Below, one piece after another: positions 11,363 through 22,061 of a stretch of DNA of 22,214 nt (positions are counted from its first letter, which is position 1; every line of letters begins with the position of its first letter). This DNA is from a virus: positions 1-22,214 of IMG/VR virus record IMGVR_UViG_3300035034_001025. The stretch is one strand, 5' to 3'. The translations under genes and the position numbers were made by a program. Below the pieces are notes generated by a model. That model had not been told where the DNA came from. It was given only the letters and a program-made list of their open reading frames with translations, and searched no databases.

Positions 11363-12634
11363 ATGGGATTTAAGCTTATTTCTAAAAATGGCGACTTTCT
11401 ACCACTGCTCAGTAGGATAGAAGATGAGGGCAACGAAGTAGTTTTCCATACAACTCAAGGAGGTGATATATATAAAGGTATACTCCCATCTGTAGATAGT
11501 CCTATAGAGTTAGATATACAAAAAGATGATACAGTTATATTCGATATGGTTGGTGCTGGTGATACCGCTGAAGTACTTAAGGATAAGAATTACCATGTTA
11601 TTGGGGGTGGTAAATTAAACGATAAGATTGAGCTTGATCGTAACCACGGTAATGAGTTCATGGAGAAACACGGTATCCCGGTACCACCTACTCATAAGTT
11701 TGATAGTTTTGATGAAGTGAAAAAGTTCTTATTAGAGCACACAGGTGAGAGGTTTGTGTTCAAACCAGATGGAAACTTAGAGACAGACCTTACCATTGTA
11801 CCATCTTCATGGGAAGGTTTAATTCGCAGTTTACCCTACATAGAAGAGAAGGTTCCAAAAGATACTATGTTCCAACTGCAAGAGTTTGTAGAGGGAATTG
11901 AAATGTCCACTGAAGCGTGGTTCAACGGAACTAAGTTCCTTCAACCTATAAACTCTACTATGGAAGAAAAGAAGTTCATGGATAGTGACTTAGGACCTAA
12001 TACAGGGTGTGCGGGTAACATTGTGTGGGCATGGGAGCGAGAGTACTCTGAGTTTCTCTATGAGTATATATTCAGACCTCTCGAAGATACACTCCGTAAA
12101 GCAGACTATATAGGTCCTCTAGACATTAACGGTATATGGAATGAAGATGGTATACACGGATTAGAATGGACTTCCCGTTTTGGGTATGATGCTATACAGG
12201 CTATGACCAGATTATTTACAATACCATTTGGTAAGTTTCTTGAAAATATTAGAACCATTGACAAAATGCCACTGTCAAATGAACTTGCCATGTCTATTCG
12301 GGTCAGCATCCCACCTTATCCATCAGAAGGTGATGTGCCTAAAGTACCTATAGTATTCCCTGAAGATTTCTCCAAAGAAGAACAGGGCATGGTATATTTG
12401 TCCGATGTATTTGTTAGTCCCGATACAGGACTTTCTTGTGCCGGTACTGATGGTTATATTCTCGCTATTGCAACATCGGGAAAATCCATACCGAAGATGA
12501 AATCCCTCATTTATAATGTAGCTGATAGAATAGAGGTGCCTAATAAACAGTATCGCAGTGATATAGGGGATAGAGTTATTGGAGAGAAAGCAAAGATGGA
12601 GATGCTACTGAAGAATCTTATGAAAAAAGCTTGA
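11363..12634 (+). CDS. PurD-like ATP-grasp ligase homologue
   Basis: This 423-residue protein follows the domain order of phosphoribosylamine-glycine ligase (PurD). It has an N-terminal Rossmann-like part (VIFDMVGAGDTAEVL near 58-72), a linker KHGIPVPPT near 102, and an ATP-grasp core with FVFKPDG (K134), LQEFVEGIEMSTEAW (172-186), SDLGPNTG (208-215) and GLEWTSRFG (266-274). The C-terminal domain carries SCAGTDGYILAIATSG and YRSDIG (397-402). PurD joins glycine to phosphoribosylamine in purine synthesis. The nucleotide-binding Gly-rich loop after K134 is replaced by NLETDLTIV, and the EFNxRFGD metal site reads EWTSRFGY, with Thr instead of Asn. It may therefore use another substrate. It lies 3 nt after the ejection protein gene, so virion or nucleic-acid modification is possible but unproven. 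Confidence 0.75.
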   Translation: MGFKLISKNGDFLPLLSRIEDEGNEVVFHTTQGGDIYKGILPSVDSPIELDIQKDDTVIFDMVGAGDTAEVLKDKNYHVIGGGKLNDKIELDRNHGNEFMEKHGIPVPPTHKFDSFDEVKKFLLEHTGERFVFKPDGNLETDLTIVPSSWEGLIRSLPYIEEKVPKDTMFQLQEFVEGIEMSTEAWFNGTKFLQPINSTMEEKKFMDSDLGPNTGCAGNIVWAWEREYSEFLYEYIFRPLEDTLRKADYIGPLDINGIWNEDGIHGLEWTSRFGYDAIQAMTRLFTIPFGKFLENIRTIDKMPLSNELAMSIRVSIPPYPSEGDVPKVPIVFPEDFSKEEQGMVYLSDVFVSPDTGLSCAGTDGYILAIATSGKSIPKMKSLIYNVADRIEVPNKQYRSDIGDRVIGEKAKMEMLLKNLMKKA

Positions 12635-12659
12635 CACCGCTATTGAGATATGATACTAT
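12631..12659 (+). promoter_or_regulatory. Sigma70-type promoter with extended -10
   Basis: TTGACA at 12631-12636 is a perfect -35. After a 17-nt spacer comes TACTAT at 12654-12659, preceded by TG at 12651-12652 (extended -10). A perfect TATAAT also overlaps at 12659-12664. The promoter overlaps the last codons of the ATP-grasp gene. Expected transcription start is near 12667, so the leader to the next ATG would be about 112 nt. It shares the TTGACA-N17-TGn layout with the promoter at 21635. Confidence 0.75.
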
Positions 12660-12666
12660 ATAATAC

Positions 12667-12764
12667 GTAAGAGACAGTCACTTCCAACAGTGGAGTGACA
12701 CCCGACTGGTATAGCACCTAAACGTTTTGGGGGTGGGAGGGTGCTTGCCAGTTCGGGTTTTATT
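12667..12764 (+). ncRNA. Candidate structured leader or small RNA
   Basis: The stretch between the promoter and the first small gene has no good coding frame and two hairpins. Hairpin 1 is GTCACTTC/GGAGTGAC (12677-12684 with 12692-12699, loop CAACAGT, one G-T pair). Hairpin 2 is long: CCCGACTGG (12701-12709) with CCAG-T-TCGGG (12748-12757, one bulge), then an inner stem AGCACC/GGTGCT (12713-12718 with 12740-12745) closing a 21-nt loop that contains GGGGGTGGGAG. A T-rich run follows. With its own promoter and terminator-like end this could be a free small RNA of about 98 nt, or an attenuator leader for the downstream operon. The transcript itself is not shown by sequence alone. Confidence 0.45.
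12701..12764 (+). terminator. Terminator-like hairpin (attenuator candidate)
   Basis: A GC-rich stem (9 + 6 bp, one bulge, small interior loop) is followed directly by GGTTTTATTAT. The T-run is broken by A, and the 21-nt loop is long, so termination is likely to be partial. It would end transcripts from the structural operon and from the promoter at 12631. All genes from 12779 to 21633 lack another visible promoter and would depend on read-through. Confidence 0.5.
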
Positions 12765-12778
12765 ATCTGGAGTAACTT

Positions 12779-12946
12779 ATGGATTACAAATACTATGGAA
12801 GGTACATCCCCCAATTCATACGACTTACTGGACTACAAAGTAGTAGACCACAGGAGGTGGCAAGACATGACTGGGGACGTAGCAATAAAAATACTAAACA
12901 GGATACAAAATCTACACAGGGAACTAAACGGAAAGAGAAAATCTAA
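12779..12946 (+). CDS. Small basic unknown protein (55 aa)
   Basis: ATG at 12779 follows GGAG (12769-12772) by 6 nt and is the first good start after the leader hairpins. It encodes 55 residues (begins MDYKYYGRYIPQF, ends TKRKEKI), strongly basic in its second half, with no family I recognise. It overlaps the next small gene by 80 nt in another frame, and that gene's ribosome site lies inside it. It is short, so it could also be only a leader peptide. No function can be assigned. Confidence 0.5.
   Translation: MDYKYYGRYIPQFIRLTGLQSSRPQEVARHDWGRSNKNTKQDTKSTQGTKRKEKI
12852..12857 (+). promoter_or_regulatory. Ribosome binding site fixing the start at 12867
   Basis: AGGAGG, 9 nt before ATG 12867. 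It is the only strong site in this frame and supports 12867 over the GTG at 12741, which lies inside the leader hairpin, and the ATG at 12795. Confidence 0.7.
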
Positions 12947-13052
12947 GTACGGACAAGAAGAATTAGAATTTAATATGTTTGAATATGACCCCGAAGATGA
13001 GAGTGACGTTGAAGTGGCCTCCGGCGAATCTCCATCTGAGGGGTCTTTTTAA
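12867..13052 (+). CDS. Small unknown protein with acidic C-terminus (61 aa)
   Basis: This 61-residue product starts MTGDVAIKILNRIQNLHREL and continues into a strongly acidic tail (EYDPEDESDVEV) that ends Ser/Glu-rich. It starts inside the preceding small gene and has a good Shine-Dalgarno site. The N-terminal part is probably one amphipathic helix; no domain is recognised. Its position at the head of the replication operon suggests a small regulatory or host-takeover protein, but this is inference. Confidence 0.6.
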   Translation: MTGDVAIKILNRIQNLHRELNGKRKSKYGQEELEFNMFEYDPEDESDVEVASGESPSEGSF

Positions 13053-13056
13053 TACT

Positions 13057-13311
13057 ATGGACGATATACCTTTTTCAATGATGATACAAGGCACTCACAA
13101 TCTAAAAGAGATTTATGATCTGAAACCTTCGAAGGTGATTATAGTTGAGAGTGCTGTCATCGAGAAGGAACGTGACTACATACAGAATGCGATGAATCAA
13201 CTACAGAATGCTTTAGACGATGCTATGAAAACAAGAGGCCTACAATTGTATGAGTCATACTACGATATAGTTGAGAAAGCAATAGTAATAAATCTAAATT
13301 GGGGGACATAA
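13057..13311 (+). CDS. Small unknown protein (84 aa)
   Basis: The chosen ATG at 13057 lies 4 nt after the previous stop. GAGGGG (13038-13043) is 13 nt upstream, a rather wide spacing, so the start is not firm; in-frame ATGs at 12979-12997 would extend it into the previous gene. The product begins MDDIPFSMMIQGTHNL and has a central helical stretch rich in Glu, Gln and Asn that could form a coiled coil (residues about 33-75). No family is recognised. The stop abuts the start of the nuclease gene. Confidence 0.6.
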   Translation: MDDIPFSMMIQGTHNLKEIYDLKPSKVIIVESAVIEKERDYIQNAMNQLQNALDDAMKTRGLQLYESYYDIVEKAIVINLNWGT

Positions 13312-14178
13312 ATGGGTAGACGAGGTTCGGATAGTGGTTATCACTTTGTACAAGATTACCGAAAGTGTAAAAGGTACTTCTACAATAAGTATGTAAATAG
13401 GCTGGTTCCACTGGAAAAGTCACCAGCTTTATTGTTTGGTGGTTGTATGCACCTTGCAATGGAGACATGGTATGGTATGTTGGGTAAAGGTAGACCAGTA
13501 CACGATAGAGTCCGTGGAGCACTGGAAACCTTTGAGAATGAAATAAATAAAGTAAGAGATCAATATGTCACTGAAGATATGTTCCTTCGTGACGTGCAAC
13601 GAGGTCAAGATATACTACGTCAGTATGGACTTCAATACGCAAACGAAAACTGGCTCGTCCTTGGAATTGAGGAGGACCTAGAAATTACACTCTCATCAGG
13701 TGATGTGTTCACAGGTAGGTTGGACTTAGCTGTTAAATCAGGCGTTGGACTTAATTATATCATAGATCACAAGTTCACTGGATGGTCAATGAGTAATGTC
13801 ATAAAGACAATGCAGAACTCTGACCAAGCCACTTCCTACAAAATGATGTGGGAGCAGAAGTACCCAGACAAACCAATCAATGCTGTCATATTCAATATCT
13901 GTAGAGCTTATAAAGGGGACGTTAAGTTTCATCAGCTCCCTATCGCTAAAATGCCACAAGACGTGGAAGAGTTCAAAGTAGGTATACAAGACGATCTATC
14001 TGACATAGCTACTCGGATAGCAGACCCAGACAGACCTTGGCCGAAGAATACTGACAGGTGCTTTGACTATAACAGACCTTGTGAATATCTCCCTCTCTGC
14101 CAGGGCGTAAACTTTGACGGTTTGATTGGAGTAAACTACAAAATACTTGAACCAGACGAACTGGTAAGTACAGAATAA
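13312..14178 (+). CDS. Cas4/RecB-like PD-(D/E)XK nuclease with likely Fe-S cluster
   Basis: This 288-residue protein has the order of motifs of the RecB/Cas4 nuclease family: H47 with E51 in the first helix (GGCMHLAMETW), D138 in TGRLDLAV, D152-x-K154 in YIIDHKFT, and Q172 with Y176 in DQATSYKMMW. One Cys near the N-terminus (C19) and three near the C-terminus (C250, C257, C263) match the four-Cys iron-sulphur layout of Cas4 and AddB. It is probably a 5'-3' or end-processing exonuclease for phage recombination or replication. It stands directly upstream of a Sak4-like ATPase and an SSB-like protein, a usual recombination set. GGGGGA at 13301-13306 is the ribosome site. Confidence 0.85.
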   Translation: MGRRGSDSGYHFVQDYRKCKRYFYNKYVNRLVPLEKSPALLFGGCMHLAMETWYGMLGKGRPVHDRVRGALETFENEINKVRDQYVTEDMFLRDVQRGQDILRQYGLQYANENWLVLGIEEDLEITLSSGDVFTGRLDLAVKSGVGLNYIIDHKFTGWSMSNVIKTMQNSDQATSYKMMWEQKYPDKPINAVIFNICRAYKGDVKFHQLPIAKMPQDVEEFKVGIQDDLSDIATRIADPDRPWPKNTDRCFDYNRPCEYLPLCQGVNFDGLIGVNYKILEPDELVSTE

Positions 14179-14194: not shown

Positions 14195-14896
14195 TTGATT
14201 AAGGAAGTTGATACTTCTCAAGGTATCACAGGGAAAGACAAGGTGTCATGGTTGCTCTATGGCCCTCCTGGCTCTGGTAAAACGTGGTTTGGTGGACACA
14301 TGCCAAACCCATTCTTCATCTCTGTTGACAATGGTTTAATAGGACTCAAAAAGAAAAAGGTTCCTATTCAGGCAGTAGAGGTTGACAGGTATGATGATGT
14401 AGTCACTGTTATTGGTGACATTTCAATGGGTAAACGTGCAAAAGATTGTCAGACAATAGTCTTTGACCACGTAACTGAATTGGGTGAGCTTGCCAAACAA
14501 TCGGCTCTGCAAGAGTCAAATAAAGTCAAAACAGACTTAAATGTTTGGGGCGTCACAGTTGACAAGATAAGGTACGTAATAAGGCAGTTGTTGAACTTGC
14601 AATCAAACTTCCATGTTGTCGTACTCGCACACGAGCAGATTGAGAAGAATGAACTGCGAGGCGGTATATTCGGAACACCTGCAACCATCGGTAAGTTCGC
14701 ATATCACATCGGTGGTATGTTTGATCTTTTCCTGTACGCAAACCAAGAGGTTCAGTACAAGAATGGTGAGAAGATTAGAATGTGGAGCTTATACACGATG
14801 GACTTTGAAGAGTTCAAAGCCAAGGACAGACTTGGTGTACTCGACGTTGTCGAGTCGAGCGACCCGCAAGTGTTGCTCAATAAAATCTATTCATAG
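14195..14896 (+). CDS. Sak4-like RecA-fold P-loop ATPase
   Basis: This 233-residue protein starts with TTG and has a clear Walker A (LYGPPGSGKT, residues 21-30) close to the N-terminus, a Walker B (TIVFDHVTEL, D91) and a strand VVVLAHEQ (141-148) at the sensor position. Size, motif spacing and the short N-terminus match the phage Sak4/AAA_24 family, single-strand annealing or RecA-like recombination proteins. Its flanks, an upstream Cas4-like nuclease and a downstream ssDNA-binding-like protein, are the usual partners. The next gene starts 9 nt after the stop with AGGAGG between. Confidence 0.85.
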   Translation: MIKEVDTSQGITGKDKVSWLLYGPPGSGKTWFGGHMPNPFFISVDNGLIGLKKKKVPIQAVEVDRYDDVVTVIGDISMGKRAKDCQTIVFDHVTELGELAKQSALQESNKVKTDLNVWGVTVDKIRYVIRQLLNLQSNFHVVVLAHEQIEKNELRGGIFGTPATIGKFAYHIGGMFDLFLYANQEVQYKNGEKIRMWSLYTMDFEEFKAKDRLGVLDVVESSDPQVLLNKIYS

Positions 14897-14905
14897 GAGG
14901 CCTAT

Positions 14906-15334
14906 ATGCCTACTATCAATCTACCAAACTTCGACCAGGTGGAGCTCGCTCCTCCGCAACTTGACCCCGGCGAATACATGATGAGTATTTCTCAGAAGCC
15001 CGAGATCAAGACAAACCCCAACGGTAAACAGTACTTAGAAGTAAGGTACAAAGTTATCGAGGGACCGGAACAGCAGAAACCCGACCCAGGTACTGGTTCA
15101 AAAGACCCCACTGGACGAGTGGTTCCTGACCGTTACTATCTAGTAGAAGGCGCAGAGTTCAGAATCAAAAGACTTCTGGTATCTACTGGTATTATTGCAC
15201 GGGACGATAAGGAATCTCCTGTTGCTCAGGGTAACTTCAACACCGATATTCTCATGGGTGTAAAACTCCCTGTTAATGTCACCATTCAGATGAACAACGG
15301 CAAAGAGTACAGGAACTATGACCCTGTCGTATGA
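14906..15334 (+). CDS. Phage ssDNA-binding-like protein (DUF669-type)
   Basis: This 142-residue protein has a beta-rich layout: LDPGEYMMSISQ, KQYLEVRYKVIEGPE, then a loop rich in Pro, Gly and Lys, RYYLVEGAEFRIKRLLVSTGI, and KLPVNVTIQMNNGKEY. The order 'GeY...v....K......yLevryevieGp...gr......l.....a...Rlk.ll.a.Gi' fits the DUF669 group, often adjacent to Sak4-type ATPases and thought to bind ssDNA. The long acidic C-terminal tail typical of SSB is absent. The stop overlaps the following methyltransferase start by 17 nt. The family call is by pattern. Confidence 0.7.
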   Translation: MPTINLPNFDQVELAPPQLDPGEYMMSISQKPEIKTNPNGKQYLEVRYKVIEGPEQQKPDPGTGSKDPTGRVVPDRYYLVEGAEFRIKRLLVSTGIIARDDKESPVAQGNFNTDILMGVKLPVNVTIQMNNGKEYRNYDPVV

Positions 15335-16193
15335 GCCAAATAAAGTTATTCATGGGGATGCAAGGGAGGTCCTTCGGGGCCTCCCTCCCCATTTCATTGA
15401 CGTCGCGGTCACATCACCTCCCTACTTCAATCTTAGGAACTACACAGAGGGTGATGAGCGAGAGATCGGAACCGAGAGCTCATTGGAAAGCTACCTTGAT
15501 AACCTAATACAGGTTTTCTCTGCTATCTCTGACAAAATGAAACCTACAGGTACATTGTGGGTAAACATAGCAGACACTTACCGTGAGGGTGTACCAATGA
15601 TGGTTCCCTGGAAGTTTATGAATGCCATGCTCAATGCTGATTGGCACCTCATAAACATCGTTGTATGGTACAAGATAGATGCTATGGCAGAGTCAGTAGA
15701 CAGGAGGTTCAGCCAGAAATGGGAGCCTTTTTATTTCTTTGCTAAGGACCCGGACATCTATCACTTTGACCCTGAAGGGACTAAGATGCCTGTAAAGGTG
15801 TCATCAGTACAAAGACTTGAGCACAAGTTCAACAAAGGAAAATCACAAGATGTATCTAGAATGCGTGGTCTTGTGGGTGATATGTCACACAAAGCAGATA
15901 TAATGCTTGAGCGTGGAGTGAATGCTGGTGATGTATGGGCAATGCCTACTAACAAGGTTCGTGTGATGCACGCAGCACCTTACCCTGTAGAGTTATGCCT
16001 ACGACCTATAATGTCGTGTTGTCCTCAAAATGGTGTTGTGTTCGACCCTTTTGCTGGTTCAGGTACAACTGGTGTAGCTACTCTCGAATTGGGTGGTAAC
16101 AGAACATTTTATGGCACTGACATAAATCCTTTATCAGTAGAGGAAGCAAACGAGAGGTTAGCTCCACAAGCAATGCAACCAACCCTATTCTAG
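15318..16193 (+). CDS. Beta-class DNA methyltransferase (N4-C or N6-A)
   Basis: This 291-residue enzyme carries the catalytic motif IV early (TSPPY, residues 32-36) and the SAM-binding motif I late (VFDPFAGSGTTG, 241-252), the order of beta-class methyltransferases. TSPPY occurs in both N4-cytosine and N6-adenine enzymes, so the methylated base is not decided. NIADTY (83-88) and DVWAMPTNK (205-213) are also typical of this family. No restriction enzyme gene is nearby; the enzyme is probably an orphan that protects phage DNA from host restriction. It starts inside the SSB-like gene with AGGA only 3 nt upstream of the ATG. Confidence 0.9.
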   Translation: MTLSYEPNKVIHGDAREVLRGLPPHFIDVAVTSPPYFNLRNYTEGDEREIGTESSLESYLDNLIQVFSAISDKMKPTGTLWVNIADTYREGVPMMVPWKFMNAMLNADWHLINIVVWYKIDAMAESVDRRFSQKWEPFYFFAKDPDIYHFDPEGTKMPVKVSSVQRLEHKFNKGKSQDVSRMRGLVGDMSHKADIMLERGVNAGDVWAMPTNKVRVMHAAPYPVELCLRPIMSCCPQNGVVFDPFAGSGTTGVATLELGGNRTFYGTDINPLSVEEANERLAPQAMQPTLF

Positions 16194-16202
16194 GAGGTTC
16201 AC

Positions 16203-16532
16203 ATGAACGGACTTATTACGGCTATAATCACTGCTATAATGGGTGCTATAATTGCACTGTTGGCAGTAACAAAAAAATACAAGAAAGATAACTATGTACC
16301 ACCTCTGAAGCATACACGAGCAGACAAAGCAAAAGATGATGCTGAGGATAAAAGTGCAAAGGTATCTAAGGAGATCGCTGATGAAAGCAAAGCTAGTATT
16401 GTTAAGCGTTTCTTTGATGCTTTTTCTCATGGCCCTTACACCGATAGTAGCGCAGGAGATAGAGACTCCACCGGAGATAAATCCAGAGGGTCTAAAGGAA
16501 GCTCTAAAGGAACTGGAGGAAACGGGGACTGA
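16203..16532 (+). CDS. N-anchored membrane protein (Rz-like position)
   Basis: This 109-residue protein has one N-terminal hydrophobic segment (residues 3-22, GLITAIITAIMGAIIALLAV) followed by KKYKK, then a charged, coiled-coil-prone stretch (about 36-70), and a Gly/Ser/Asp-rich end (83-109). The last third is encoded on DNA shared with the nested gene at 16381. An N-anchored coiled-coil protein with a nested signal-peptide gene in the +1 frame is the layout of phage Rz/Rz1 spanins, but the rest of the match is weak. AGGAGG at 16192-16197 supports the start. A membrane or lysis role is inference. Confidence 0.65.
   Translation: MNGLITAIITAIMGAIIALLAVTKKYKKDNYVPPLKHTRADKAKDDAEDKSAKVSKEIADESKASIVKRFFDAFSHGPYTDSSAGDRDSTGDKSRGSKGSSKGTGGNGD
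16368..16373 (+). promoter_or_regulatory. Ribosome binding site of the nested gene
   Basis: AAGGAG, 7 nt before ATG 16381 and inside the coding region of the 16203 gene. It selects this start over the upstream ATG at 16336, which has no good site, and yields a clean signal peptide. Confidence 0.75.
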
Positions 16533-16779
16533 AACTGTACCTGTACCGATACCATATATGCGCAATGCTTTATGGTATTATGAACACTACTTTATCATAC
16601 GTGACTTAAACTATGAGTATGAAAAGTATATAGTTGAATTGGAGACAGACTTTGCTGACTGTGCAGAGGATGTCCGTGATCTAAGACAAGAAAACTCAAG
16701 CATGGAAAAGTGGCTTATGGGTACTGGTAGCTATGGTATCATTGCCACATTTATAATAGTCTTGATTATTGCAATCTAG
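16381..16779 (+). CDS. Nested signal-peptide protein with C-terminal membrane anchor
   Basis: This 132-residue protein begins inside the preceding gene (152 nt overlap, +1 frame). Residues 1-24 form a classical signal peptide (MKAKLVLLSVSLMLFLMAL, cleavage likely after IVA). No lipobox Cys is present, so it is not an Rz1-type lipoprotein. After a Pro-rich segment (TETVPVPIPY, 50-59) comes a charged helical region with a single Cys (C94), and the end is a hydrophobic anchor (about 115-132, GIIATFIIVLIIAI). The product would thus be periplasmic and held at its C-terminus in the inner membrane. Possible roles are a divergent spanin or an envelope effector; no family is recognised. Confidence 0.65.
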   Translation: MKAKLVLLSVSLMLFLMALTPIVAQEIETPPEINPEGLKEALKELEETGTETVPVPIPYMRNALWYYEHYFIIRDLNYEYEKYIVELETDFADCAEDVRDLRQENSSMEKWLMGTGSYGIIATFIIVLIIAI

Positions 16780-16788
16780 GAGATTTTT

Positions 16789-17286
16789 ATGGTACGTAAA
16801 ACACTTATCATCTGTATGCTTATACTCACTACAGTTACATTGTACAGTGAGGGGGCTAGGATTGATTATGCGAAAATAGTGAACGAAGTAAATGAAATAC
16901 GCCAAAGTGTTGGTTCTCCAGATGTTACTCACAACATAGACCTAGTAGAACTAGCAAAGTTACAAGTGGAAGCGATGATAGAGCATGGAGCTATGGAGCA
17001 CAACCTCACACCTGAAGAAGATAAACGAGGGCTGAAGATGAAAGCGATGCAATCGTTTAATGTGAATAAATCCTATATTGCGATACGAGTATTCGAACTG
17101 ATCGCCAGGATGCCCGTCAACTCTCTACTAAAGGCTGAGATCGTTATACCTCATGTATACGATACGAGCTCTCGACATTTCTCTGTCCTTACTGACTTTA
17201 ATGCAGAAGCAATGGGATGGTACGTCAGTGAGGATGATGGAACGTATTGGATTAGCACCTATGTACTCATGAGGTATTACCAATGA
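16789..17286 (+). CDS. Secreted CAP/SCP-like protein
   Basis: This 165-residue protein has a short N-terminal signal peptide (TLIICMLILTTVTLYS, cleavage near residue 20-23). The rest resembles CAP-superfamily (YkwD/PR-1-type) domains: an opening helix with NEVNEIRQSVG, a helix with AKLQVEAMIEHGAMEHN (H71), then SSRHFSVLTDFNAEAMGW (H130) and TYWISTYVL. The two His match the usual positions of the CAP cavity; the GENI-like Glu is not seen. CAP proteins in bacteria are secreted and bind lipids or wall components. AGGAG at 16778-16782 precedes ATG 16789. The gene ends in an ATGA overlap with the DNA polymerase gene. Confidence 0.6.
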   Translation: MVRKTLIICMLILTTVTLYSEGARIDYAKIVNEVNEIRQSVGSPDVTHNIDLVELAKLQVEAMIEHGAMEHNLTPEEDKRGLKMKAMQSFNVNKSYIAIRVFELIARMPVNSLLKAEIVIPHVYDTSSRHFSVLTDFNAEAMGWYVSEDDGTYWISTYVLMRYYQ

Positions 17287-19655
17287 TAACAGTGAAAGGG
17301 AGAGAGAAAGTTCACTTTGGGCAGGAGAACTATCCTCCTTGCCCAGAGTATTGGAAAAGTACATTCGTACCTAGCGTTGGTATGAGTCAGGTGGATGTAA
17401 TGGTCATTGGAGAAGCACCTGGTAAGAATGAGAATAAGCAGGGACTTCCGTTCGTAGGAGCCGCAGGTAAATGGCTCGATATACTTATGAATGGTGTTGG
17501 TATTGAAAGGTCAGACTGCTATATTACTAATGTCATAAAGTACCAACCCCCCGGAAATAACATCAGCACTCTGACAGCACACGATCAGATAAAAGCAAAT
17601 ATACCTATGCTTATAAAAGAGATCAAAACTGTAAAGCCAAAGGTCATTGTGCCTATGGGTAACGTAGCGTTACATGCACTCGGGTATTCACACAAGATAG
17701 GTAAAGCTAGAGGTACAGTATTCGAATCACAACTTGGTAAGATCATACCAACCTATCATCCAGCCGCGCTATTTAGACAATGGCATGAGTTATACACGGC
17801 TCAAAAAGACTGGGAGAAAATAGCAAAACACACTAAACAGATAGGTCAAACTCGATACCGTGAGGATTTTGAGATTTCACCTTCGATAGAAGATTTAGAG
17901 GAGTTCGTATACTTCGTAACCAATCTCGTTAACTCAGGTCAAAAGGTGAAGATAGCAGTAGACTTAGAGACCTACATAGCAGACTCACCATTGCTCACTC
18001 CTATAAAACTCATAGGTATTGCAATATCAGAGACACGCGCTATAGTTGTACCTTTTATAAATCAGTCAGATCAATATTACTGGCCGACTAAGGGAGAAGC
18101 AGTCAGGGCAATAAAGGCAGTGGGCACCTTACTTGAGAATCCTCAAATAGAAAAACTGTTCTTCAACGGTTTGTTTGACGTACTCGTTTTAATGAACCAC
18201 GGTTTTACTGTGACACCACCTTTCTTTGACCCTATGCTAGGGCAGACTCTCATATACCATCTGTCTCAACACTCACTTGCGTATGTCACCTCAATTTATA
18301 CAGACTTTCCAGCGTGGAAGCTCACGGTAGGGGAAGGAGACAAGGAGTACCGTGAGTACAACGCAAGAGACTGTGTAGTATTACACATGATCTACGACGA
18401 CATACTGAAGGATATTAATGACAACGGATTGACTTTTATATTTAATGTCCTCATGGATGAGATGCTACCTGTTGTGAAGATGATGCTCAATGGAATCTAC
18501 ATTGACAAGGAGAAGTATGCACACGTAAGAGAGTTGCTCGAAGCAGAAATGAAAGAGGTCACTGAAAGAGTCTCTAAGGTGGCAGGTTTCGATATAAACC
18601 TTGAATCTACTAGGCACGTAAGCAACTTACTGTTCAAGCGACTGAAGCTTAGGTCACAAGTAAATACAAAGGGAGGGGCCAAGAGTACTAGTAGGGACGT
18701 AATCAACAGACTTGCAAACCGCTATCCTGATAATAAAACAGTGCATGACATACTGACGTACAGAACAATTTCCACTCGTTACAAAACATTTATAAAGAAC
18801 CTATTGATTCAACCTGATAATAGGGTTCACAGCTCTTTCAAGATGCACCGTGTAGTCACTGGTAGATTCTCCTCAAGCGAACCGAATATGCAGAACCTCC
18901 CGAAGAGAGCAGACTCTGAAGGTTTCATACGTGGTATGTATGTAGCACCTCCAGGTCGCAAGATCATCACAGCAGACTACTCACAGTTGGAGCTTATGAT
19001 ATTTGCTGAAATCTCACATGACGAGATATGGCAAGAAGCGTTCAGGAATGGCGAGGATGTCCACAAAGTAAACGGCGACGCTCTTCTTGGCGAGTATCAA
19101 GAGAAGTATAGAACTTTCGTAAAGAACTTTATCTACGGTTTCATATATGGTAGTGAGGGCGGAGAAGTTGAGAAGGTTGCACCGAGAGAGCTCATTGAAA
19201 AAATCTCAGTACCACAGATGATGAACAACTTAAAGCAAACACACCCCTGGCTATTTCAGTACCGTCACACTATCGAACGCCAAATGAGGGAGAACAACTA
19301 TGTGACAAATGCGTTCGGCAGACGACGGTGGTTTATTGAAAAGCAAGATAAGGAACAACTACGCCAGGCCTACAACTTTCCAATTCAGTCCACCGCCGGT
19401 GACATAATGAATATAAAAATGAGCGAAGTAGACAAAGCATTAAAGTGGCCAGAGGAAAAGATAATACTCCAGCTACATGATGCTTTCTATCTTGAGGTGC
19501 CCGATGCACGAGTAAAGCATTGTGCACGAATGCTTAAAGAGATCATGGAAGAGTCCGTTTACTCACCTATGGGATATGAGTTTAATCTCAAGGTTGAAGT
19601 GGAGGTAGGCACTAGCCTGTCCGACAAAGACATGGAGAGATGGAGTGAAGAATGA
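17283..19655 (+). CDS. DNA polymerase I family fused to an N-terminal UDG-like domain
   Basis: This 790-residue protein combines three domains. Residues 36-170 follow family-4/5 uracil-DNA glycosylases: [37 protein letters not shown] and [10 protein letters not shown]. Residues about 220-380 are a 3'-5' exonuclease with DLE (D227, E229), FNGLFD (N295, D299) and YNARD (Y359, D363). Residues about 395-790 are a family A polymerase with ITADYSQLE (D565), [14 protein letters not shown] (R610, K614, Y618) and LHDAFYLEV (D733). The position aligned with E. coli F762 is Tyr. The Cys of the usual KCRPP in family-4 UDG is Tyr here and the N-terminal Cys pair is incomplete, so the iron-sulphur cluster is probably lost. 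Start and stop overlap neighbours by ATGA. Confidence 0.9.
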
Positions 19656-20935
19656 GCAAAGAAAATACACCTTTAGAGAAGCTACTTGCAAAGTCAGCTC
19701 AAGAAGAGAAAGAGTTCCGAGCTATTATACCAACAGCTGGTTTCATTGGCTCTTATATGAAATATACAGATTATCAAGAGAGTCCCAGCTCATATCACTT
19801 CTGGGTTGCTCTCTCTGTACTCTCTAGTATACTACAACGTAGAGCATGGGTGTCCAAAGGAGTCTACAATGTATTCCCGAATATGTTTATGATTCTCGTA
19901 GCACCTTCTGGTAGATGCCGTAAGAGTAGAGCATTGAACCTTGGTACTGAATTAGTACAGGACTTTGACTTCATGAATATAATCGCAGACAAGACCACAC
20001 CAGAGTCTATGCTTGAAGCCTTAATGACAGGTACTAAAAACCTCACAAGGGTTGAAGATCAGAACCAAGGTGTGATAGACTTGAATGTAGATAGTACAGG
20101 TTTCATAAAAGCTGGTGAGTTATCTGTATTCTTGAACAAGCAGACGTATACATCTGGCATGGTAAATCTTCTGACAGATTTATATGACTGCCCTAAGAAG
20201 TTCAAGTACCTCACACGTAACAAGAAACCTATTGAGCTAAACAACGTAGCTGTAACCTTCGTCGGCGCTTCTACACCTGATTGGCTTGCTACCAGTTTAC
20301 CTGAAGCTGCCTTTGAGGGTGGGTTTATGAGTCGCATTATCTTTGTTGTGAAGCATTACAAGGATAGATCAATAGCACTCCCAATGGACCCACCTAGAGG
20401 GATGTTTGAGGACTTACAGAAGCAGCTAATGCAAATAAGAAAGCTCTTTCGGGGTAGAATCGAGTTGAGTCAGGCCGCTCGAAAATGGTATGTGAACTGG
20501 TACCATAAGCTTGAGAACACACCGATGGAAGATGAGTCATTGAGCGGGTTCCTTGAGAGAAAACCTGATACAGTGTTGAAGGTTGCACTCTTACTCACAT
20601 CATCAAGTAACCCTGAGAAGAAGCTCATACAGGAAGGGGATATGATACAAGCAGAGAAGATTGTATCATGGACACAATCAAGAATGTTCAACGCGTTCAA
20701 AAACGTTGATATGACACACTTAGGCAGACTAGGTCAAAAGGTATTAGATATACTTGAGCAGAAAGGAGAAGTATCCAGAAGAGAGATCATGCGTAAGCTG
20801 GGGTCAAAGATCAATGGAACTAAAGACCTTCAAGAGATTGAACAGATTCTTGAGGAAAGTGGTCGGATGGAAGTCGTTCACGGTATCGCGAATAAGGGCG
20901 GTAGGCCAAGTACAGTTTACAAGAGGTTGTCATGA
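19652..20935 (+). CDS. DUF3987-type helicase/primase-like protein
   Basis: This 427-residue protein has the layout of DUF3987 phage replication proteins. A degenerate P-loop lies at 84-92 (APSGRCRKS, with Ala and Arg replacing Gly), a Walker B-like AGELSVFL at 154-161, GASTPDWL at 205-212 and GGFMSRIIFV with R228 at 223-232. A C-terminal winged-helix-like part follows (GQKVLDILEQKGEVSRREI onward) and ends RPSTVYKRL. DUF3987 proteins are usually placed with polymerase genes and are thought to act as replicative helicase or initiation factors; the family function is not well established. It begins in an ATGA overlap with the polymerase, so the two are translationally coupled. Confidence 0.75.
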   Translation: MSKENTPLEKLLAKSAQEEKEFRAIIPTAGFIGSYMKYTDYQESPSSYHFWVALSVLSSILQRRAWVSKGVYNVFPNMFMILVAPSGRCRKSRALNLGTELVQDFDFMNIIADKTTPESMLEALMTGTKNLTRVEDQNQGVIDLNVDSTGFIKAGELSVFLNKQTYTSGMVNLLTDLYDCPKKFKYLTRNKKPIELNNVAVTFVGASTPDWLATSLPEAAFEGGFMSRIIFVVKHYKDRSIALPMDPPRGMFEDLQKQLMQIRKLFRGRIELSQAARKWYVNWYHKLENTPMEDESLSGFLERKPDTVLKVALLLTSSSNPEKKLIQEGDMIQAEKIVSWTQSRMFNAFKNVDMTHLGRLGQKVLDILEQKGEVSRREIMRKLGSKINGTKDLQEIEQILEESGRMEVVHGIANKGGRPSTVYKRLS

Positions 20936-21634: not shown

Positions 21635-21663
21635 TTGACAAATCATGTGTAACATGGTAGAAT
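21635..21663 (+). promoter_or_regulatory. Sigma70-type promoter with extended -10
   Basis: TTGACA at 21635-21640, a 17-nt spacer, then TAGAAT at 21658-21663, with TG at 21655-21656 giving an extended -10. A start near 21670 would give a short leader with AAGGAG at 21682-21687. The design equals that of the promoter at 12631. Confidence 0.8.
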
Positions 21664-21694: not shown

Positions 21695-22012
21695 ATGAAT
21701 GAAGAGTTTTTGAATGTAGAGGAGATTAAAAGTCTGAAAGAATTGGATGAGCTTCAGACAGCCCTCACCGAAGGGGAAACCGCAGAAGAGAAGCGTATTA
21801 TATCGCTGTTGGATAGTACCAACGACGAGTCCCTTCGAAACACACTGTCGGAACGGCTGGAAGAGATACAGAGCGCCAATTCTGTAGACATCGAAGAAGT
21901 CATCGGCCGTCTTGAATCCATCGGGTTCACCCACGCATCTGTACTACGTCACGGTATCACCAAGATTCGGCAACAGGTCAAATGGCGGGCCAAGAATCGC
22001 GGAAAAGAGTAG
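21695..22012 (+). CDS. Unrecognised charged protein in its own transcription unit
   Basis: This 105-residue protein has an acidic, helical N-terminal two thirds (NEEFLNVEEIKSLKELDELQ onward) and a basic end (KIRQQVKWRAKNRGKE). It has no recognised domain. The start is supported by AAGGAG 7 nt before the ATG. Its own strong promoter lies upstream and an intrinsic terminator 24 nt after the stop, so it is a monocistronic unit outside the long operon. Base composition is higher in G+C than the preceding genes, which may mean a separate origin. An early host-takeover or regulatory protein is one option; nothing in the sequence decides it. Confidence 0.75.
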   Translation: MNEEFLNVEEIKSLKELDELQTALTEGETAEEKRIISLLDSTNDESLRNTLSERLEEIQSANSVDIEEVIGRLESIGFTHASVLRHGITKIRQQVKWRAKNRGKE

Positions 22013-22035: not shown

Positions 22036-22061
22036 GCCCCGGTGTTTCGCCGGGGCTTTTT
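22036..22061 (+). terminator. Intrinsic terminator
   Basis: Perfect 7-bp GC stem GCCCCGG (22036-22042) with CCGGGGC (22050-22056), loop TGTTTCG, followed by TTTTTATTTTT. It ends the 21695 unit. On the minus strand the same stem would end a convergent gene, though the following sequence is a weaker T-run. Confidence 0.9.

Follow-up and report, generated by a model that had tools for sequence, protein, structure and literature searches.

A promoter-proximal, terminator-like leader at the junction of the structural and replication genes in a partial phage genome

The window analysed here is the whole stretch of 22,214 bases that makes up positions 1-22,214 of the IMG/VR virus record IMGVR_UViG_3300035034_001025, a partial genome in which all the main genes are carried on the + strand. 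The structural block encodes tail-fibre assembly, a virion structural protein, large proteins and, as its last gene, an ATP-grasp/GARS protein, and is followed by the replication genes; a promoter and a structured leader sit at the junction between the two (Table 1). Related phages carry remote copies of the ATP-grasp gene, which there lie on the other strand from the replication genes.

Table 1. Features identified at the junction and in the replication operon (positions are those of the window)
Feature	Position	Strand	Remarks
ATP-grasp/GARS protein, end of structural block	11363-12634	+	Related to phosphoribosylglycinamide synthetase (PF01071)
Sigma-70-type promoter TTGACA-N17-TACTAT with extended -10 TG	12631-12659	+	10/12 consensus matches
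Hairpin 1, 9 bp (6+3, one-base bulge), ACAG loop	12677-12699	+	-9.7 kcal/mol, z -2.4
Hairpin 2, imperfect stem, large G-rich loop, 59 nt	12700-12758	+	-29.4 kcal/mol, z -4.0
G-rich loop segment GGGGGTGGGAGGG	12729-12741	+	Potential two-tier G-quadruplex
T-tract TTTTATTAT	12758-12766	+	From the sequence; would hold the RNA 3' end in the event of termination at hairpin 2
GGAG, Shine-Dalgarno-like	12769-12772	+	6 nt ahead of ATG 12779
Best-supported first coding frame past the leader, 85 aa	12795-13052	+	By codon score
Second terminator-like hairpin (12987-13045) and TTTTT	12987-13050	+	-27.9 kcal/mol, z -4.0, 0/500 shuffles
Cas4-like nuclease	13312-14178	+	
Sak4	14195-14896	+	
SSB	14906-15334	+	
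Methyltransferase	15318-16193	+	
PolA	17283-19655	+	
Primase	19652-20935	+	

The -35 (TTGACA, 12631-12636) and -10 (TACTAT, 12654-12659) elements of the leader promoter are separated by a spacer of 17 nt with a TG, and the -35 element covers the TGA (12632-12634) that ends the preceding ATP-grasp gene. From the position of the -10 element, transcription is expected to start near 12666. Sites of comparable quality (at least 10/12 matches, spacer of 17, TG) occur three times on the + strand of the window, as against a mean of 0.14 per shuffled window, and the leader promoter and a site at 21635 are those of the three that are located at gene ends or between genes. The near-consensus promoter that a first-pass annotation had placed ahead of the leader is thus borne out by its 10/12 matches, its TG and its rarity in shuffled sequence, and the accompanying claim that no other promoter is visible up to 21635 is essentially right, the intervening + strand sites having at most 10/12 matches and all lying within genes. 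The extended -10 promoter at 21635-21663 (+ strand, 11/12) is followed by a single 105-aa ORF of unknown family (21695-22012), which ends before a textbook terminator at 22036-22056 (+ strand).

The leader past this promoter is predicted to fold into two hairpins that abut with no base between them. Hairpin 1, described earlier as an 8-bp hairpin, is present with a stem of 9 bp. Hairpin 2 has a stem of 19 bp (18 without the closing G-U pair) and a loop of 19-21 nt that holds GGGGGTGGGAGG, and the T-tract adjoins the base of the stem on the + strand alone. The stability of hairpin 2 was reached by one of 500 shuffles, and none of 500 was as stable as the whole leader (z -4.7). The same fold was obtained in every flanking context tried, with pair probabilities of at least 0.97 (hairpin 1 included), so that RNA extending in from the structural block would adopt it too. 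With both strands compared, hairpin 2 is the best hairpin-plus-T-tract of the window; the best sites on the + strands of 40 shuffled windows had a mean of -20.5 kcal/mol and none went past -29.0, against -29.4 kcal/mol for hairpin 2. The long imperfect hairpin with a G-rich loop and a terminal T-run that had been claimed for this position is therefore real as a predicted structure and exceeds 40 out of 40 shuffled windows.

Hairpin 2 shows the arrangement of an intrinsic terminator, a stable stem-loop with a T-tract immediately behind it, and there is no other strong candidate between the structural block and the replication block. Like ordinary Rho-independent terminators, it is a GC-containing hairpin that runs directly into the T-tract; unlike them, it combines a length of 59 nt and a loop of 19-21 nt with an interrupted T-tract and a borderline score. 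By the d'Aubenton-Carafa formula, the score is +3.3 without the A-T pair at the stem foot and -5.3 with that pair included; the same formula gives +56.6 for the compact terminator at 22036-22056. The T-tract is interrupted by A. Natural terminator loops have a median of 4 nt, and TransTermHP is limited to loops of 3-13 nt and stem-loops of at most 59 nt (PMC12207403); the length of hairpin 2 equals the latter limit, and its loop shortens to 9 nt only when two inner pairs are counted. Owing to the broken T-tract and the large G-rich loop, hairpin 2 is to be regarded as a sub-canonical terminator. Such proportions also make a purely structural leader possible, and the chances of termination at hairpin 2 with partial read-through appear about even. 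In E. coli, transcription is widely terminated early within 5' untranslated regions, with short RNAs as the outcome (PMC7815308).

An anti-terminator formed by CACCC (12699-12703) and GGGTG (12739-12743) had also been proposed. Both motifs are present, but pairing them gives a structure 16.6 kcal/mol less stable than the main fold, with a pair probability of about 1e-11, and the proposal is not supported. When the transcript was folded length by length, an ACCC-GGGU pairing appeared only at a transcript end of about 12744 and was displaced by 12750, which makes it transient. No better partner for the arms of hairpin 2 was found within 12560-13100, the best reaching -19.0 as compared with -30.2 for the native stem. 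In view of the costly CACCC/GGGTG pairing and the lack of a competing partner for the arms, no classical terminator/anti-terminator switch is visible, and the leader has no competing anti-terminator of the comparable stability that an attenuator switch calls for. Thus, of the earlier suggestion of a terminator-like leader heading the replication operon, or of a released small RNA, the position and the fold stand and an RNA of ~100 nt is possible, whereas the switch finds no support.

Searches for a homologous leader returned none by blastn in phages and none by exact pattern in IMG/VR. The leader gave no blast match in the relatives, and its covariance model found no match over 100 sources totalling 1.5 Mb (the window and the loci of the relatives). 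In Rfam no family rose above the gathering threshold, with weak minus-strand matches over the hairpins falling far below it. Relatives themselves were found neither by single-protein scans nor in the genome collection; profile scans yielded only primases with 24-38% identity, the nearest relatives being 36-38% identical. The collections searched may omit records very near the window, and closer relatives may therefore exist. In the nearest relative, a promoter (886-914) lies upstream of the nuclease gene and is followed by a leader without an unusual fold (z +0.8). 

The leader is nevertheless an orphan of a known kind of element. IsrK of Gifsy-1 is a prophage small RNA, and some transcripts pass its terminator and enter an operon (PMC4825925). 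The IsrK/anrP leader resembles the present one in its phage promoter and in a short RNA bounded by a terminator that is partially read through into the operon (PMC4825925), and differs in that no sequence relation, trans target, upstream ORF switch or antiterminator gene was identified here. The lambdoid pR'-tR' region with Q (PMC6606751) and AlpA with PalpB-tB (PMC9371919) are similar in having a terminator downstream of the promoter, read-through of which would control a long operon; in contrast to these systems, the present leader heads replication genes. Neither a Q nor an AlpA homologue was recognised in this partial genome. A -10-like NANNAT pause element, a mark of Q- and AlpA-type antitermination, is absent from 12664-12700 (the first ~30 transcribed nt, with the start taken near 12666), a simple string test for boxA of lambda N/nut detected no GCTCTT or CGCTC in 12631-12800, and no antitermination element was recognised in the leader. 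By analogy, the leader would come closest in function to IsrK and the lambdoid pR'-tR', in which a terminator near the promoter allows read-through.

The reading preferred here, which we consider evenly poised between right and wrong, is that the region constitutes a promoter-proximal, intrinsic-terminator-like leader with partial or regulated read-through into the replication operon. Host RNA polymerase would start near 12666 and the leader would fold into the two abutting hairpins; a fraction of the polymerases would stop in the T-tract near 12764-12766, releasing an RNA of ~100 nt, and the remaining polymerases would read through into the replication operon. Hairpin 2 would determine how strongly the replication genes are expressed for a given rate of promoter firing, or regulate this together with an unknown factor, and would also block transcription arriving from the upstream structural block. 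The promoter match, the predicted fold, the T-tract and the order of the genes are shown by the sequence; termination, the dependence of the operon on read-through and any regulation are inferred from them. Against this reading weigh the oversized loop, the interrupted T-tract and the low score, together with the failure to find the leader conserved or to recognise an antitermination element. If the termination is real, the replication operon is gated by a leader terminator right after its own promoter, the phage makes an abundant ~100-nt RNA, and a strong promoter need not mean strong expression of the operon, which would offer a simple control point. A terminator-gated replication operon would alone represent no new principle.

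The block to upstream transcription could also be the main function, hairpin 2 being chiefly the terminator of the structural operon, with the polymerases of the next promoter bearing the cost or escaping kinetically. We consider this unlikely, as one would look for a plain terminator ahead of the promoter, and elsewhere (at 22036) the phage employs a compact one; the overlap of the -35 element with the stop codon could, on the other hand, have forced the order of promoter and then hairpin. No other strong candidate exists at the end of the block, and hairpin 2 lies 65 nt past the stop codon, a distance at which a terminator would act at full efficiency (PMC4824070). Since this spacing allows full-strength action on transcripts of the structural block, hairpin 2 may serve both operons.

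An improbable alternative of a different kind is that no termination occurs and the leader is a structured 5' untranslated region, the hairpins of which would protect the 5' end of the mRNA or bind a protein. The location of the T-tract exactly at the stem foot and on the + side only argues against it; the very stable stem, the large G-rich loop and the weakness of the T-tract are in its favour. The 5' end can in addition pair with the start codon at 12779, although the three-way junction so formed was rejected as being within chance (49/500 shuffles).

The ~100-nt RNA may itself be the product, acting in trans as a small RNA in the manner of IsrK of Gifsy-1 (PMC4825925). The promoter of its own, the two stable hairpins and the 3' T-tract agree with this precedent, but there is no homologue, known target or Rfam match, and such a role seems very unlikely. 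A G-quadruplex function for the loop is a still more distant prospect: a two-tier G-quadruplex would cap hairpin 2, with K+ or a G4-binding protein tuning whether polymerase terminates or continues into the replication operon; alternatively, the transcript, being G-rich, would form an R-loop that primes replication. The segment 12729-12743 is the most G-dense 15-mer of the window, and the energy model prefers the G-quadruplex (-48.3 vs -41.2); the G4Hunter score of 1.56 is not above shuffles, the mean maximum of shuffled windows being 1.65.

The put RNA of HK022 (~70 nt) has two adjacent stem-loops just past a promoter (PMC9378689), as the present leader has two abutting stem-loops immediately past its own, but the second stem here is followed by a T-tract, whereas the putL sequence of HK022 has none immediately adjoining its second stem. 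A cis-acting antitermination RNA of this type, modifying RNA polymerase to pass later terminators such as the terminator-like hairpin downstream at 12987-13050, is barely credible, as no put sequence or structure is matched and the covariance model that finds HK022 putR (positive control) finds nothing in the leader.

The coding sequence begins shortly past the leader. With +0.25 per codon, the frame 12795-13052 outscores the two alternative frames (-0.84 and -0.75), and its 85-aa product belongs to no known family and has no homologue in the searches made. The best Shine-Dalgarno spacing is that to the ATG at 12779 and not to this frame. The 55-aa ORF starting at ATG 12779 and a start from GTG 12741 inside hairpin 2 were both rejected as the first gene on account of their weak coding signal. 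The second terminator-like hairpin falls within the last codons of the 85-aa gene and is as unusual for its composition as hairpin 2 (both z -4.0); its 3' arm contains GAGGGG, the Shine-Dalgarno-like site of the next ORF (ATG 13057). Translating ribosomes would be expected to keep this hairpin open, and it could serve in the translational coupling of the two genes, or in polarity control by stopping untranslated transcripts.

Further along the replication operon, another strong hairpin (15352-15392, + strand, -28.5 kcal/mol) without a real T-tract lies near the start of the methyltransferase gene. The operon also includes a CAP-domain gene (16789-17286, + strand; Pfam PF00188, E 4e-6), the product of which probably carries a signal peptide. 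Between the methyltransferase and the CAP-domain genes, two small ORFs overlap in different frames (16203-16779, + strand), each with a hydrophobic segment, and a weak Rz1-like (LysC) Pfam match below the cut-off hints at spanins.
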